Shown: piece by piece, positions 12,375 to 19,807 of the stretch
Numbering within the stretch: the stretch's first letter is position 1
Layout: the number at the start of each line of letters is the position of its first letter
NCBI RefSeq assembly: GCF_900111765.1
Contig: NZ_FOIB01000009.1
Span: 310,001 to 374,000 of the forward strand
Source of the DNA: Myxococcus fulvus
GTDB taxonomy: Bacteria; Myxococcota; Myxococcia; Myxococcales; Myxococcaceae
Reading direction: 5' to 3'
Length of the DNA: 64,000 nucleotides
Notes under the pieces: model-generated
Databases searched by the model: none
Told to the model about the DNA's origin: nothing
What the model saw: the letters and a program-made list of their open reading frames with translations, nothing else
Program-made: the position numbers and the translations under genes

Positions 12375-12390
12375 TGGCACATGTCCTGCT
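12375..12390 (+). promoter_or_regulatory. Sigma-54-type promoter element
   Basis: TGGCACATGTCCTGCT matches the sigma-54 consensus TGGCAC-N5-TTGCW at ten of eleven defined positions, with GG and GC separated by exactly 10 bases. It lies 54 bases upstream of the ATG at 12444, and a GGAGAGAG ribosome site lies between them. The best match of the three elements found in 12375-15761. Confidence 0.6.
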
Positions 12391-12443: not shown

Positions 12444-13172
12444 ATGGCTTCCTATCAATGGAACGACGGCCGCATCCTGACGTTGAACCCCGGCGACACC
12501 GCGAAATGCCAGGGTGAGCTCAATCAGCAGCAGCTCTACGCGCTCTTCTTCTACAACAGCGCGCAGAACGACACGGGGGCCACGCTCAACGTGGTGTGGA
12601 GCAACAGCCAGCCCCCGGTGCAGGTGCATGTCCCGGGGACCGCGGGGAGGCTGGGTCTGGCGTCGCTGCTCTTCGTGTCTGGCAATGACACGAACAGCGT
12701 CTCGCTGTCGATGGGCCAGAACCAGCCGGGCGCCCAGGTGCAGTGCTTCATTGGCAGCGTCAAGATGCCCACCAACACCGCGGGCATCAACAACACGCCA
12801 CTGGAGGCGGATGGGCAGCTGCACCCGTTCAATGCCTTCACGCGGTACTTCGCCGTGCCCCAGTCCCACTGGTACCAGGGACAGCTGCAGAGCAACGTCA
12901 ACCAGTTCATCTCCGTCCAGTTCACGCAGCAATCGGCGCTCGTCAACGTCGTGAACTGCCTGGTGGACCCCTCGCCCACCCTGTTCTACGCGGGCCCCAC
13001 CGCGCCCTCGCAGGTCAAGGTGAACCCCGTCCAGAGCCAGACGCTGCAGTGGAACTTCCAGGGCAACGGCGGCCAGACGGTGTGGATCAACGCCGACAGC
13101 ATCCAGAACTCGCAGTCGGCCTCCATCTCGCTGCTGTCCCTCGCCTCGCTCTACGCGGCGCACCAGCCTTAG
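12444..13172 (+). CDS. Unrecognised beta-rich protein under a sigma-54-type promoter
   Basis: 242 residues, no signal peptide, no membrane helix. The start is the ATG after GGAGAGAG; longer open frames upstream are not needed. The protein is very rich in Gln, Asn, Ser and Val with alternating polar/hydrophobic stretches, as in beta-sandwich or lectin-like folds. It contains a central PFNAFTRYFAVPQSHWYQG and a Ser-rich C-terminus. Codon use is like its neighbours. The following gene, 90 bases on, encodes a sigma-54 activator. Possibly a developmental or extracellular structural protein, but I do not recognise the family and assign no function. Confidence 0.75.
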   Translation: MASYQWNDGRILTLNPGDTAKCQGELNQQQLYALFFYNSAQNDTGATLNVVWSNSQPPVQVHVPGTAGRLGLASLLFVSGNDTNSVSLSMGQNQPGAQVQCFIGSVKMPTNTAGINNTPLEADGQLHPFNAFTRYFAVPQSHWYQGQLQSNVNQFISVQFTQQSALVNVVNCLVDPSPTLFYAGPTAPSQVKVNPVQSQTLQWNFQGNGGQTVWINADSIQNSQSASISLLSLASLYAAHQP

Positions 13173-13262: not shown

Positions 13263-14873
13263 GTGTCCCGGCCCCCTCCCGTCTCCCCTCCATCGCCCCA
13301 GGTGTTGGCCGACGTCTCCACGGCCGCGGAGCCTCCACGCCGCGCGTCCGAGGCCGCCTCCCACCCGGTGGCGGTGCTGACGCTCGTCGCCCACCCACAC
13401 CTGGCCCGCGTGGGTGAGCGGCTCGTGCTCGAGGACCTGCTCGCGGGTCAGGAGTGGGTCCTCTCGCGCAATGCCCCGGACTTCACGCCCGCCTCCAGCG
13501 CCTTCGGCGCGCCGCTGGGGGATCCGTTCCTGAGCCGCAAGCCCTTCCTCCGGTTCAACCGGACGGACGCGGGGATTCGCGTGAGCGTGGGGCCCGAAGG
13601 GAAGTGCACGTCGGACGGCCTGCCGCTGGGGGACGCTCGGGAGTGGAGCCTGGAGGAGGTCAGGGCGGGCATCCCCCTGGAGCTGGCCGGGCGGCTCGCC
13701 CTGCTGCTGCACCTGTCCGACCCCAAGTCCACCTCCGCGCGCTCGTTGCCAGGCATGGTGGGCGAGAGCGTGGGATTGCGCAGGGTGCGCAAGGACATCG
13801 AGCGTGTCGCGGACCTGGACTTGAGTGTCCTCATCCGAGGCGAGACGGGCACCGGAAAGGAATTGGTCGCGCAGGCGCTCCATCAGCAGAGCCCGCGCGC
13901 GAAGAAGCCCTTCCTGAGCATCAACCTGGGCGCCATCCCCAAGGAGCTCGCGGCAGCCGAGTTGTTCGGCGCGGCGAAGGGTGCCTTCACCGGAGCGCAT
14001 CAGGCCCGCGACGGTTTCTTCCGCGCGGCACAGGGTGGCACCCTCTTCCTGGATGAAATCGGAGAGGCTTCCGCCGAAATCCAGGTCATGCTCCTGAGAG
14101 TCCTGGAGACAGGCGAGCTGTTCCCCGTGGGCGCCAGCACGCCGGTCCGCGCGGATGTGAGGCTGGTGGCCGCCACGGACGCGGACCTGGACACCCACAT
14201 CCGCGATGGCCGCTTCAAGGCCCCGCTGCTCCACCGGCTCGCGGGCTATGAAATCCAGTTGCCGCCGCTGCGCGAGCGCCGTGAGGACATCGCCCCGTTG
14301 TTCCTCCACTTCGCCCGTGAGGCCTTGGAGTCCATCGGGGAGTCGCATCGACTGACACCGGGCGACCCCTACCAGGAGCCCTGGCTGCCGCCTGCGCTCG
14401 CCATCCGGTTGCTGCGCCATTCCTGGCCTGGGAACATCCGCCAGCTGCGCAACGTGGCCCGGCAGCTCGTCGTCGGCAGTCGGGGACAACCCCGGCTGGA
14501 GCTCGGACCGCGGCTCGCACAGGAGCTGGAGCCCCCCCTGCCCCGCGCGCGCCCTCCTGCCCCCGAGTCGCCCGACGCCGAGCCCGTGGCGCGACGCAAG
14601 TCCACCGACGTGACGGAGCCGGAGCTGCTTGAGGCCCTGCGCGCGCAAGACTGGGACGTCAAGCGCGCCGCGGACCACCTGGGCATCCCCCGCTCGTCCA
14701 TCTACAACCTCATCGAGCGCAGTCCTGTCATCCGGCTCGCCGGAGACTTGAGCGTGGAGGAACTCACCCGCTGCTTCCATGAGTGCCAGGGCGACCTGGA
14801 CGCCATGGTCCGCCGCCTGGAAGTGTCCCGCCGCGCGCTCAGCCGTCGCATCAAGGAACTGGGGCTCGGCTGA
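13263..14873 (+). CDS. Sigma-54-dependent transcriptional activator with FHA-like N-terminus and two C-terminal HTH units
   Basis: 536 residues, GTG start (exact start uncertain). Residues 40-150 look like a degenerate FHA domain (WVLSRNAP, PFLSRKPFLRFN), the phosphothreonine-binding sensor common in myxobacterial activators. The AAA+ domain (about 160-400) has Walker A GETGTGKE, the sigma-54 contact loop GAFTGA, Walker B LFLDEIGE and the arginine-finger region. The C-terminus carries a Fis-type HTH (DVKRAADHLGIPRSSIYNL) and then a second similar unit (LDAMVRRLEVSRRALSRRI). One HTH is normal. It sits between two sigma-54-type elements (12375 and 14884) and probably controls both flanking transcription units. 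Confidence 0.92.
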   Translation: MSRPPPVSPPSPQVLADVSTAAEPPRRASEAASHPVAVLTLVAHPHLARVGERLVLEDLLAGQEWVLSRNAPDFTPASSAFGAPLGDPFLSRKPFLRFNRTDAGIRVSVGPEGKCTSDGLPLGDAREWSLEEVRAGIPLELAGRLALLLHLSDPKSTSARSLPGMVGESVGLRRVRKDIERVADLDLSVLIRGETGTGKELVAQALHQQSPRAKKPFLSINLGAIPKELAAAELFGAAKGAFTGAHQARDGFFRAAQGGTLFLDEIGEASAEIQVMLLRVLETGELFPVGASTPVRADVRLVAATDADLDTHIRDGRFKAPLLHRLAGYEIQLPPLRERREDIAPLFLHFAREALESIGESHRLTPGDPYQEPWLPPALAIRLLRHSWPGNIRQLRNVARQLVVGSRGQPRLELGPRLAQELEPPLPRARPPAPESPDAEPVARRKSTDVTEPELLEALRAQDWDVKRAADHLGIPRSSIYNLIERSPVIRLAGDLSVEELTRCFHECQGDLDAMVRRLEVSRRALSRRIKELGLG

Positions 14874-14883
14874 CCCGACGACG

Positions 14884-14899
14884 GGGCCCGTGGATTGCA
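14884..14899 (+). promoter_or_regulatory. Sigma-54-type promoter element upstream of the first small paralogue
   Basis: GG at 14885-14886 and GC at 14897-14898 are 10 bases apart, and the -12 box reads TTGCA. The -24 box (GGGCCC) is weaker than consensus. The GC is 36 bases before the ATG at 14934, with GGAGG between. The same arrangement recurs at 15746, with nearly identical bases. Confidence 0.5.
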
Positions 14900-14933: not shown

Positions 14934-15296
14934 ATGAGCACCGCCCCCCTCGGCGACATTCCCCAGCGTTCCACCAACAACGAAGACACCCTCGAAGCCG
15001 TGCCGGATGGCTGGTGCTTCAATGGCAGACCCTTCAGCTGTGGTGCGACCATCGACATCGGACCTGGCGACACGATCGATCTCGAGGCCGCCCCTTCGCT
15101 CCTGCACCCCGCCTTCTATCTCGACGGCAGGCTTGTCCAAGGGGCCATCAGGCCGTCCAGCGGTCATCACTCCATCGAATGCAGGTACACGGAGAACGGA
15201 GGCGAGACCGCCGGAGACATCACGGGGACGCTCAATGTCGGGACCGGCACGGAGGACTCCCGCCAGCCATCGCACTCGGAATGGAGCCAGGCATGA
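14934..15296 (+). CDS. Small tandem paralogue 1 with GTLNVGTGTED motif
   Basis: 120 residues, starting after GTGGAGG at the ATG of 14934. No signal peptide. It has an early DGWCFNG segment and a late GDITGTLNVGTGTED, both shared with the two genes that follow. Between them the chain is beta-like (IDIGPGDTIDLEA, PAFYLDGRLVQG). A short polar tail ends the protein. The stop overlaps the next start as ATGA. No known family is recognised. Linkage to a sigma-54 element and to the activator upstream suggests regulated, possibly developmental, expression. Confidence 0.75.
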   Translation: MSTAPLGDIPQRSTNNEDTLEAVPDGWCFNGRPFSCGATIDIGPGDTIDLEAAPSLLHPAFYLDGRLVQGAIRPSSGHHSIECRYTENGGETAGDITGTLNVGTGTEDSRQPSHSEWSQA

Positions 15297-15799
15297 GCAA
15301 CAAACCCCCACCGCCGGACCAGGAGTTCATCATCACGGCCACGCGCAAAGGATGGCGCCTCAACGGTGCGGGCTGCGAGGAATCCATCACGATCGCGATG
15401 GACGCTAGACAGAGGGTCAGGTTCGAGATCGAACCCGAGCCCAAGCCCGCCCCGAGCACACGCCCCGACTACATCTTGATTGGACGCGCCAGATCGCGTT
15501 CGCGCTTCCGAGTCCCCGTCGTCTTGAACACCTTCCTTCCCGAAGCCCTGCCCGCTGGGAAGTACCACCTCGTCTATCTCTTCCGGGAGGGGCCTTTGGG
15601 GGGAGAGTTGAGCGGAACGCTGAACGTCGGAACAGGCGCGGAGGAGGACGACGGGCTCCTGAATCAACCCCCAGACAGAGGCCACCACGAGCGCGCAACA
15701 ATAAGGGCAAGCACCAAGCCTCTTGAGCTGGCAGGTGTCGAAGAAGGGCCCAGGGATTGCAAATCCTGGGCATCTCTCTCGCAGCGGAGGAATGCATGA
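15293..15799 (+). CDS. Small tandem paralogue 2, with a C-terminal extension
   Basis: 168 residues from the ATG at 15293 (ATG at 15281 is in frame too). It shares KGWRLNG near the start and GELSGTLNVGTGAE at residues 104-117 with its neighbours. Unlike them it continues for about 50 residues after the motif. That extension runs through the sequence that forms the sigma-54-type element of the third gene, and a TGA in another frame occurs just after the motif, so the long tail may be secondary. ATGA overlaps at both ends couple it to the flanking genes. Confidence 0.7.
   Translation: MSNKPPPPDQEFIITATRKGWRLNGAGCEESITIAMDARQRVRFEIEPEPKPAPSTRPDYILIGRARSRSRFRVPVVLNTFLPEALPAGKYHLVYLFREGPLGGELSGTLNVGTGAEEDDGLLNQPPDRGHHERATIRASTKPLELAGVEEGPRDCKSWASLSQRRNA
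15746..15761 (+). promoter_or_regulatory. Sigma-54-type promoter element upstream of the third small paralogue
   Basis: GG at 15747-15748 and GC at 15759-15760 lie 10 bases apart, with TTGCA at -12. The element lies inside the 3' part of the second paralogue. The GC is 36 bases before the ATG at 15796, the same distance as in the element at 14884, and the bases between (CTCTCTCG, then GGAGG/GGAGGA) also match. The promoter seems to have been duplicated with the gene. Confidence 0.5.
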
Positions 15800-16182
15800 G
15801 CATCTCACCCCATCAGGGACAAGACTCGACGCATGATGAACTCGACGTCATCAAGGCCACACGGTGCGGATGGACCCTCAACGGGCACCTGGTCAAGGAC
15901 AACATCATCAACGTCCCAGCGGGCATCACCAACGTGCTCCTGTTCGAGACCGCTCCCGACCTCGTGGACCCTTCCATCCATCTGCGGACGACGGGCGCTC
16001 CGCCGCGTCTGCCCATCGACCTTTTCGTCCCGACGGACGTGCCCATCCACGACTTCCTGCCCGCGGGGCAATACATCCTCATCTGCCGGTTTCGTGACAT
16101 CCTGGCTGGCGACATCAACGGGACGTTGAACGTCGGAACAGGGACCGAGGATCCCCGCGGCGACGCCAACGTCAGCGTGTAA
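15796..16182 (+). CDS. Small tandem paralogue 3 with GTLNVGTGTED motif
   Basis: 128 residues from the ATG of an ATGA overlap, preceded by GCGGAGGA. CGWTLNG near residue 24 and GDINGTLNVGTGTED near residue 107 match paralogues 1 and 2, and the region between is again beta-like, with FLPAGQYILICRF resembling the equivalent LPAGKYHLVYLF in paralogue 2. No signal peptide, no membrane segment. The 3' end overlaps the convergent kinase gene by 11 bases. Unknown family; paralogy with its two neighbours is clear. Confidence 0.75.
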   Translation: MSISPHQGQDSTHDELDVIKATRCGWTLNGHLVKDNIINVPAGITNVLLFETAPDLVDPSIHLRTTGAPPRLPIDLFVPTDVPIHDFLPAGQYILICRFRDILAGDINGTLNVGTGTEDPRGDANVSV

Positions 16183-19100
16183 GCGTGGCGCCCGGAGTCT
16201 CCCGTCCGTTCGACCAACGTGGGGCAAGATTCGGGTTGCGGGAGAGCGCCAGATTCAACGCCTCCCGCGCCTGAAGCCGCTCCCTCCGGGCGTCCTCGCT
16301 CCCTCCTGACGTGAGCTCCGCTCGCGCCAGGAGCAGCCCCGCGCGGTGGGCCTGCGCGTTGGCCCATCCGGGCCTCGCCGCCAGCGCCTCGTCCACACGG
16401 ACGAGACCGCGCTCCAGGAGGACCTTCGCGTCCGCGCCCCGCCCGGCGCTCCACGCCGCCCAATCCAGACAGAGCCGGACGAAGGCCAACCGGAAGTCAT
16501 GGCGCTCGGGCGCGAGCTTCAGGGCCTCATCGAACGCTCGCGCCGAGGCCTCGAAGTCCTCGTCCGCCCCCTGCCCCTTCGATGCGCCCCAGCGCGCACG
16601 GACCGCGAGCAGCTCCCCCTGTCCGCTCCAGGCCTCCGCCAGCCGGGGGTTGTGCTTCAGGGCCTTCTGGAGCGCTTCCTCGGCGCGCTTCAACGCAGGG
16701 CCCGGATCCCTGCCTCGCGCCAGGTCCTCCGCGGCCCCGAGCGCCTCGCTGGTGCCCAGGTTGGACCAGGGTTGGGCGTGCTCCGGCGCCAGCGCCACGG
16801 CCTGCTGATAGGCCTCCAGCGCCGCGCGGAGGCTCACGCCCGGGTCCTTCCCCGCCTCGCGCAGGTGCAGGGTCCGCACGGCGTGCACCTCGCCCAGGTT
16901 GTTGAGCGCTGGGAGCCACTTGGGCGCCACCTCGAGCGCCTTCTCATAGCTCGCCTGGGCCTGGGCCAGCAGCGGCTCCGAGGACTCGCCGCGCTCCCAC
17001 GCATCCTCCGCCTGACGACGGAGCACCCTCCCCACGCCGTTGTGGAGATGCGGCAGTCGCGGATTGATGCCCAAACCCTGGCGATACAACTCGAGCGCCG
17101 CGTTCAGCTCCGGCTCCGGGTCTCCGCCCGAGTTCCGTCGGCGCGCGGCCAGGAGGATGTGGGCCTCGCCTCCATAGAAGAACGTCACCACATGTCTGGG
17201 GTTGATGCGGCGGGCCTCCGCCAGCGCATCGCGCGCCCGGGCCAGGTCCGCCTCCTGCTCCGCGCCATGCAACCCCTCCGCGCGGGTGATGTATGCGATT
17301 CCCAGGTTGATGTACGGCTCGGGCAGCCGAGGGTCGAGCGCGATGGCCTCGCGATAGGCCTCCATGGCCTTCCCACGGGCCTCCCGCGAGGACAGCCCCG
17401 CCAGCTCCTCGTACTCCGCCCATTCCTTGTGGAGCAGCCCCCGCTGGTTGTGGAACCCGTGGTCCCGTTGCTCGGGAGCGATTCCCTCCAGCATCGCCAG
17501 GGCCTCGCGGAAGCGCTCGCGCGGGTCGCCGCCGTGCTCACGGCGGGACTGTCCCCACTGGAGCAGGACATTGGCCAGCTCGAGCCGGGCCTCGGGCCGC
17601 TGGGGTGCGAGCGCCAGCGCGGTCCGCAGGCGCTCGGAGGACTTCTGGAGCAGCACCTCCAGGTCCACGCCATGGCGGCCCCGGTCCTCCGCCCAGCGAC
17701 GGTGGAAGCGCGCCTCCAGGACGAGCGACTCGTAGTCCTCGGGTGAGGCGGCCAGCGCCCGCGCGACGGAGGCGAGCCCCCGCTCATAGGCGGGCCCCAC
17801 ATCGCCCTTGTCATACAGCTCCATCAACAGCACCGCGTACTCGAGCCCGGCCAGGGCGCGATGCGACGCGGGAAGACTCTCCGCGATGGCGATGGCCCGG
17901 GAGTAGGCGCCGCGAGCGGCCTCGAAGTCGCGCAGCGCCTCCTCACGCGCACCGGAGGTCCCCTTGCGAGTCGCGCGGGCCACCAGGATGTCCCCGCGCA
18001 ACATCGGCGCCTCGTGGAGCCAGGGCTGCTGGGTGCCCAGCGTGTCCAGCAGGCCGAGGGCCTCTTCCAGACGCCCCTCGTAGAAGGCCAGCAGGGCCGT
18101 GCCGTACTCGGGAGCGAGCCCCTCCGCGCCCTGGCTCTGGCGCAGGTACGCGAGCGCCGGGGCTCGGTAGTCGCGCTCCAGGTCACTCAGGCGCGCCTGT
18201 CGTTGCTCGGGAGAGCGCAGGCGCTCGGCCTCGAGCAGGTGTGCCCGGTAGAGCTGCCCCATCACCAGGGCCAGGGACTGGGCCACGCGGGGCTCTCGGA
18301 AGTCCGCGCTCCACGCGGACTCCAGGGAGCGGCGGGCCTGGGCGATGTCGCCCAGCGCGAGGGCACCTCGTCCCAGCGCGTAGTGTCCGGGGCCCCGCGC
18401 GCTCGGCCCACCGGTGTCGATCTCAGCGGCGAGCAAGTCCATCCGCTCGCGCAGCCGGCGCTGGTCCTCGCGCGTATCGTGCAGCGGGGCGAGCGCGGAG
18501 TAGCGCGCCAGGGCCTCGATGCGCTCCACCTGCTCGGTGAAGCGGCGGGCCAGGCGCTCACGCACCGAGGCCTCATGGCGGGTCAGGGCCACCTGCCCGA
18601 GCGCGCTCGCGACGACCAGCAGCATGGCGGCGACCACGGCCACGCGGCGCCAGTGTTTGCGCAATCGCTTGCGGAGCTGGTAGCCGGCGCCCCGGTGCGC
18701 GCGCACGGGCTCGCCCGCGAGATAGCGCTCCAGGTCCTCGGCGAGCGCGCGCGCCGAGTCGTAGCGAGCGGAGCGGTCCTTCTCCAGACACTTGAGGGTG
18801 ATGGCCTCCAGGTCCTCGGGGATGGCCTTGTCCAGCATCCGGGGTGGCCGAGGCTCCGCGGTGCGCAGTTGCTCCAGCACCTCCAGGGCCGTCTGCCCCT
18901 CGAACGGAGCATGCCCGGTGAGGAGGAAGTAGAGGCTGGCGCCCAGGCTGTAGACATCCGCGCGGCGGTCCAGCGAGGCGTGCTCACCACGGGCCTGCTC
19001 GGGGGCCATGTAGTGGGGCGTGCCCAGCAGCGTCCCATCCAGGGTGGTGCTCGCGGACCAGTCACGGGCGAGGCCGAAGTCCATGACATAGGGCTTCAGC

Positions 19101-19807
19101 GTGCCGTCATCGGCGCGCTCCACCATGATGTTGGAGGGCTTCAGGTCGCGATGGATGAGGCCCACGCGGTGCGCCTCGTGCACGCCGAGCGCGGCATCCC
19201 GGAGCACCATCACCCGCTGCTCCAGGCGCAGTGACGGCGCGAGCGCGCCGAGCGGCTGGCCGTCGATGAACCGCATGGCGATGAAGACCTTGTTCTGGAC
19301 CTCGCCGACCTCGTAGACCTCGCAGACGCGCTCGTGACTCACGCGGGCCTGGGCGCGGGCCTCCGCGATGAAGCGGCGCGTGAGCCATGACGACTCGTCG
19401 CGGACGAACTTGAGCGCCACCTGGCGCCGCAGGCGCGGGTCCCACGCGAGGAACACGCGCCCCATGCCGCCCTGCCCCAGGAGTCGGACGGGCTGGTAGC
19501 GGTCCCACCCGGGAACGGGGAAGTCCTCGGGCGCTATCGCGCTCCGTGCCTCGACGGGAGGCGGCACCGTGACGGTGTCGTCGGGAGAAGGGCCCGCTGT
19601 GGGGCTCGGAGCCGCGTGACTGGACAGGTCCTGACGCAGCGCCGCGAGCGTGTCCGCGGAGAGCCGTCCACGCTCCAGCAGGAGCTGGAGGGGGCGCTTC
19701 CCCATCCGGAGCGCCTCCTCGCGAATCGCAGCCACTTCGTCCCGGGTGAGCATGCCTTCAGCCAGCGCCACTCCGAGCAACGGCTCATCACCATCCTGGA
19801 CAGCCAT
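16172..19807 (-). CDS. Large Ser/Thr protein kinase with TPR repeats
   Basis: 1211 residues. An N-terminal 80-residue helical region precedes a Hanks kinase domain (about 100-370): GQGGMGRVF, catalytic Lys in VALKFV, HRDLKPSN, DFG and MAPEQA, all intact. One membrane helix follows at about 390-410 (RRVAVVAAMLLVVASALG). The C-terminal 800 residues are helical TPR-type repeats, visible as recurring A-x3-Y/G-x-A-L-x-P units such as EKALEVAPKWLPALNNLGEV. Such proteins are common in myxobacteria, where the TPR part probably scaffolds partners outside or beneath the membrane. Single gene, convergent with the paralogue cluster. Confidence 0.92.
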   Translation of the reverse strand: MAVQDGDEPLLGVALAEGMLTRDEVAAIREEALRMGKRPLQLLLERGRLSADTLAALRQDLSSHAAPSPTAGPSPDDTVTVPPPVEARSAIAPEDFPVPGWDRYQPVRLLGQGGMGRVFLAWDPRLRRQVALKFVRDESSWLTRRFIAEARAQARVSHERVCEVYEVGEVQNKVFIAMRFIDGQPLGALAPSLRLEQRVMVLRDAALGVHEAHRVGLIHRDLKPSNIMVERADDGTLKPYVMDFGLARDWSASTTLDGTLLGTPHYMAPEQARGEHASLDRRADVYSLGASLYFLLTGHAPFEGQTALEVLEQLRTAEPRPPRMLDKAIPEDLEAITLKCLEKDRSARYDSARALAEDLERYLAGEPVRAHRGAGYQLRKRLRKHWRRVAVVAAMLLVVASALGQVALTRHEASVRERLARRFTEQVERIEALARYSALAPLHDTREDQRRLRERMDLLAAEIDTGGPSARGPGHYALGRGALALGDIAQARRSLESAWSADFREPRVAQSLALVMGQLYRAHLLEAERLRSPEQRQARLSDLERDYRAPALAYLRQSQGAEGLAPEYGTALLAFYEGRLEEALGLLDTLGTQQPWLHEAPMLRGDILVARATRKGTSGAREEALRDFEAARGAYSRAIAIAESLPASHRALAGLEYAVLLMELYDKGDVGPAYERGLASVARALAASPEDYESLVLEARFHRRWAEDRGRHGVDLEVLLQKSSERLRTALALAPQRPEARLELANVLLQWGQSRREHGGDPRERFREALAMLEGIAPEQRDHGFHNQRGLLHKEWAEYEELAGLSSREARGKAMEAYREAIALDPRLPEPYINLGIAYITRAEGLHGAEQEADLARARDALAEARRINPRHVVTFFYGGEAHILLAARRRNSGGDPEPELNAALELYRQGLGINPRLPHLHNGVGRVLRRQAEDAWERGESSEPLLAQAQASYEKALEVAPKWLPALNNLGEVHAVRTLHLREAGKDPGVSLRAALEAYQQAVALAPEHAQPWSNLGTSEALGAAEDLARGRDPGPALKRAEEALQKALKHNPRLAEAWSGQGELLAVRARWGASKGQGADEDFEASARAFDEALKLAPERHDFRLAFVRLCLDWAAWSAGRGADAKVLLERGLVRVDEALAARPGWANAQAHRAGLLLARAELTSGGSEDARRERLQAREALNLALSRNPNLAPRWSNGRETPGATLTR

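Follow-up and report, generated by a model that had tools for sequence, protein, structure and literature searches.

Three small genes of Myxococcus fulvus, referred to here as A, B, and C, are likely the output genes of a local cassette formed with a membrane Ser/Thr kinase, a sigma-54 activator, and sigma-54-type promoters, and the motif shared by the ends of their products, GTLNVGTG, is likely the last strand of the protein core. The genes lie in a stretch of 64,000 nucleotides (the window), and the relevant features are collected in Table 1. The gene order, its recurrence in other genomes, the sigma-54-type sites, and the strict C-terminal motif are all read from the sequence, and position and orientation alone are insufficient to prove a shared pathway. 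An earlier note on this DNA had described A, B, and C as a single family of beta-like proteins with either a structural or a sorting constraint on the common ending. The single family, the predicted all-beta body, and the structural constraint are supported and the sorting role is not; the note had overlooked the two regulatory genes on either side, the sigma-54 sites, and the fact that the arrangement recurs.

Table 1. Genes and promoter sites of the cassette, in positions of the window
Feature	Position	Strand	Description
242-residue beta-like protein (12444 gene)	12444..13172	+	adjoins activator; no Pfam match
Sigma-54 activator	13263..14873	+	PF00158 (7.8e-60), PF02954 (8.3e-10); AAA+ with GAFTGA, Fis-type HTH
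Protein A	14934..15296	+	120 aa; GWCFNG, GDITGTLNVGTGTE; relative in G058 at 55.6%
Protein B	15293..15799	+	168 aa; GWRLNG, GELSGTLNVGTGAE; 46-residue tail overlapping the C promoter region
Protein C	15796..16182	+	128 aa; GWTLNG, GDINGTLNVGTGTE; model all-beta, last strand 106-115
Ser/Thr kinase	16172..19807	-	PF00069 (2.3e-38), TPR models; one membrane segment at about 389-409
Sigma-54-type -24/-12 site TGGCACATGTCCTGCT	12375..12390	+	10/12 consensus; upstream of 12444 gene
Sigma-54-type -24/-12 site GGGCCCGTGGATTGCA	14884..14899	+	10/12 consensus; upstream of A
Sigma-54-type -24/-12 site GGGCCCAGGGATTGCA	15746..15761	+	9/12 consensus; upstream of C, within the B tail

The three genes lie where the note had placed them, all on the forward strand, and they are joined by 4-base ATGA overlaps at 15293-15296 and 15796-15799. 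The late C-terminal motif agrees exactly with the claimed pattern in all three proteins, whereas the early GW-x-LNG, which had also been assigned to all three, is present in B and C and reads differently in A (Table 1). A search of the own genome with C returned B (E=1.7e-9) and A (E=1.3e-5), which supports one tandem family and not a chance occurrence of the motif, and it returned no fourth close copy. Third-position G+C supports coding (0.81 in C and about 0.75-0.78 in A), and B is less typical. The frame of B extends about 46 residues beyond GTLNVGTG; this tail (15653-15799) crosses the promoter region of C and resembles read-through after the loss of a stop codon. The overlap of B and C may be a mere result of such a loss. 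As the note had supposed, A, B, and C belong to no established family: no matches were obtained in Pfam or NCBIfam, and a direct family search against PDB profiles gave nothing. A signal peptide-like hydrophobic segment was found in none of the three proteins.

The distribution of this family is narrow. With an A-C profile, relatives were detected in two more genomes of the same genus among 96 genomes of the family and 145 of the order, one of them being Myxococcus qinghaiensis (L064), and the three carriers among the 145 order genomes always have the family at the same locus. In both relatives the gene is single-copy, stands at the same place, and is flanked by the same two genes; on this comparison, the three tandem genes result from expansion at this locus. 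Species genomes scanned with the profile gave pattern matches and no relative, and a search of a plasmid collection gave no match. Among the 96 family genomes, the 12444 gene is restricted to the three that carry A-C, where it is always next to the activator, and it probably belongs to the same regulon as A-C.

The neighbouring activator combines an AAA+ sigma-54 interaction domain, in which KGAFTGA can be read, with a Fis-type DNA-binding domain, and its N-terminal domain is conserved in every cassette. From its appearance, this N-terminal domain was first assumed to be FHA, an identity that was withdrawn as Pfam, PDB, and profile comparison gave no confirmation: a Pfam search with 14 members and a PDB search yielded no match to FHA or anything else, and when the domain profile was compared with that of 30 FHA domains from the own genome, an SRK element aligned (P=0.31). 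Near the N-terminus and ahead of the conserved domain, the activators (13305-13330 in the window; L042-L062) have an invariant ST in D-x-ST-[AT], which is a candidate for phosphorylation by the kinase next to them. The kinase itself has the Hanks-type motifs GQGGMG (GxGxxG), HRDLKPSN (HRD), and DFG, and its TPR repeats stand behind the membrane segment. It is convergent with the small genes and overlaps C tail to tail by 11 bases.

Activators and kinases of these kinds are already known in Myxococcus. Sigma-54 enhancer-binding proteins of Myxococcus, some with an FHA domain, were reportedly described by Jelsbak, Givskov and Kaiser in 2005. The cassette activators resemble such proteins in the AAA+ domain with GAFTGA, the Fis-type HTH, and the Ser/Thr kinase beside them, and they differ from the FHA type in an N-terminal domain that matches no FHA model or profile. 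Similarly, the cassette kinase shares with PknB-type Hanks membrane kinases the kinase domain, a single membrane segment, and a C-terminal part behind it, but this part consists of TPR repeats and not of PASTA repeats.

From the types of genes present, we propose that the membrane Ser/Thr kinase would sense a signal via its TPR part outside the cytoplasm and would control the neighbouring AAA+ activator, with phosphorylation assumed as the means of control. The activator would then open the sigma-54 promoters before A (and possibly B with it) and C, and probably also that before the 12444 gene. The products of A-C would be small beta-sandwich proteins.

The cassette recurs widely in the family. 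Homologues of the kinase TPR part (E<=1e-40) were found in 65 of the 96 family genomes, at 1-6 per genome. In 17 of 20 further sampled loci an activator homologue (56-62% identical) faces the kinase convergently across at least one small gene, and in both relatives of the window locus the activator likewise stands beside the kinase and is convergent with it. Nearly all sampled loci have the order activator, small gene(s), kinase, with the first two pointing towards the third and the kinase towards them; the small genes are referred to below as cargo. The activator N-terminal domain is present in 27 of 27 genomes of the genus, and its copies (1-7) track the numbers of the kinase. Four cassettes occur in the own genome (in the window and at C2, C14, and C10), all fitting the pattern, and the same arrangement is found at named loci of Myxococcus, Pyxidicoccus, Archangium, Hyalangium, and Corallococcus. 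The literature searched, in which coverage of older activator papers was thin, gave no account of such a cassette together with its cargo.

At several Corallococcus loci, other genes are inserted between cargo and activator. Varying genes part cargo and activator from the kinase, or from one another, at L069, L071, L072, L074, L075, L078, L081-L083, and L085, and the inserts include an NAD-dependent epimerase-like gene, a transporter, and a methyltransferase. Since the inserted genes vary, the cassette in Corallococcus is a site of gene turnover.

Promoter sites were scored against TGGCACGN4TTGCW over 12 positions in the stretch before or at the gene start. Sites of at least 10/12 were found for 57% of 75 cargo genes and 2.1% of 654 control stretches of the same loci, and sites of at least 9/12 for 73% and 8.7%, respectively; many of the scored loci are from related species and hence not independent, and the sites nevertheless recur in different cargo types. 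About a quarter of the cargo genes have no clear sigma-54 site. In the window, the block upstream of the 12444 gene is identical in all three genomes that carry this gene, and the two relatives have kept the site before A in its position. Their sites align with those of both A and C, and the alignment continues as far as the ribosome-binding site. Because its own site sits inside the tail of B, C could be transcribed alone.

Cargo proteins form several strongly differing types, and nearly all of the proteins end in G-x-[LIV]-x-V. One type has no signal peptide and the ending G-x-LDVTTDPP; among the rest are lipoproteins with KGNL-x-VVTSG or NGTLEVTGRGED as the ending. This motif had been read from the first 40 proteins, on which its count (40/40, with 1.9 in shuffles) is circular, and it was therefore tested on 40 loci unused before, a count that supersedes the former. 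In 32 of the 40 held-out loci the kinase adjoins a small gene that is on the expected strand and has the G-x-[LIV]-x-V ending, and four of the remaining eight have variant endings (GDLEVTRD at L151 and GTL-x-A or GTM-x-A at three loci). A further cargo type (MSKNQLIL.. / VAKHQLII..) was observed at L166, L178, and L179, with the endings GTLTASKP, GTLIASKP, and GTMVALPP. At four kinase loci (L145, L161, L173, and L177) no cargo gene could be recognised; in two of them, L173 and L177, repeated segments encode VYWEKLSEGPVDGSDRYSAGVPAM-like sequence in a frame of high G+C.

The other cargo types are connected to one another by profile comparisons, in several pairs with E between about 1e-6 and 1e-10. 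A-C share the place of the class, as they lie on the strand of the activator in the interval that separates it from the kinase, and also its ending, as GTLNV fits the C-terminal G-x-[LI]-x-V. Against the wider cargo, hhalign gave P=0.0016 and a probability of 16% and aligned only LPxGxYxL and the last strand. Because this profile link is weak, we call A-C probable, and not proven, members of the wider cargo class; their homology to it, as judged from place, promoter, and short motifs, is suggestive.

The predicted fold agrees with the beta-like body that had been noticed earlier. A low-confidence model of C (4 alignment rows, pLDDT 63, pTM 0.56) shows an all-beta fold of seven strands, the last of which is the motif. 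A fold search with this model gave no match at E<0.001, and pseudoazurin was among the weak matches (probability 0.82, E=0.18). In PDB, the wider cargo profile matched mostly cupredoxins, with auracyanin A as the best match (E=0.0032) and plastocyanins at 0.04-0.2; the sequences of A-C themselves gave no cupredoxin match in PDB. No conserved set of type 1 copper ligands (His, Cys, His, Met) was found in the alignments of A-C or of the wider cargo. In its profile the wider cargo class resembles the cupredoxins (plastocyanin, auracyanin, amicyanin, pseudoazurin), and it differs from them in having no conserved copper site. A model of a second cargo type (L066) was discarded for its pLDDT of 40.

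The small proteins may alternatively be ligands of their own kinase, with the C-terminal strand or an acidic tail docking on the TPR part in a feedback loop, a reading that we hold to be rather unlikely. TPR domains are known to bind C-terminal peptides, which is in its favour. The cargo class is also tightly linked to one kinase family, which docking would explain, and many cargo proteins have lipoprotein signals that would place them on the TPR side of the membrane. However, A, B, C, and the TTDPP type are without a signal peptide and would be on the wrong side unless they are otherwise exported. TPR docking is disfavoured for the window cassette because A-C have no export signal, and the reading of A-C as output genes of the cassette is preferred.

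The cargo differs from its neighbours in its rate of change. Identity between A and its counterpart in G058 is 55.6% (dN 0.37, dS 0.57), whereas in the same comparison it is 94.8% for the activator, 92.7% for the kinase, and 91.3% for the 12444 gene (dN 0.03-0.05, dS 0.19-0.26), and the cargo protein changes about ten times faster than these three. As dS is also raised, A and the G058 gene are maybe not strict orthologues, and positive selection is hence not proven. This contrast in divergence, the varying copy number (3, 1, and 1), and the strong variation of cargo type among cassettes would fit a diversification of the protein bodies for strain or species recognition (kin recognition, predation, or defence), with the cassette as a recognition locus. 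We regard this as distinctly unlikely, since paralogue exchange or mismatched copies explain part of the divergence, as the raised dS indicates, and no toxin, immunity, or delivery signature was seen. A broader proposal, in which kinase-gated sigma-54 cassettes throughout the Myxococcaceae would each carry a diversifying, copper-free, cupredoxin-like ligand or recognition partner of the own kinase, is speculative and, in our judgement, unlikely.

The motif itself is informative at the codon level. Its residues are identical in the three genes and its codons differ synonymously (5/8 between A and B, 5/8 between A and C, and 3/8 between B and C), from which it follows that GTLNVGTG is under protein-level selection and is no recent copy; outside the motif, A, B, and C are only 31-40% identical. 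The structural constraint that had been proposed for it is consistent with residues 106-115 being the last predicted strand in the low-confidence model of C. GTLNVGTG most likely forms the last strand in the core of a predicted beta sandwich, strictly kept while the exposed body diversifies. The earlier note had also suggested a count of paralogues that end alike; three distant ones were found, one in each of the other cassettes, with the endings GGLDVTTD (C2), GNLDVVTK (C14), and GELEVVRD (C10), and their homology to A-C is suggestive only. That the motif is instead a sorting or secretion signal seems very improbable. It is strict, C-terminal, and common to otherwise different proteins, as such a signal might be, but like endings occur in cassette proteins both with and without lipoprotein signals, A-C themselves have no signal segment, the motif is predicted as a strand, and in B it is followed by a 46-residue tail.

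A chance neighbourhood, in which A-C are orphan genes that happen to stand beside a kinase and an activator, is scarcely credible and already disfavoured: their presence in three genomes only speaks for it, but in most cassettes the corresponding position is occupied by a small gene whose product ends similarly, and the promoter signal is strongly enriched.

Ser/Thr kinases and sigma-54 activators reach record numbers in myxobacteria, and to our knowledge most of these have no known partners or outputs. In the cassette, kinase, activator, promoter, and output gene are adjacent and recur as a unit, and the targets of the kinases are therefore testable cassette by cassette. The recurrent cassette points to an undescribed kinase-controlled output system.
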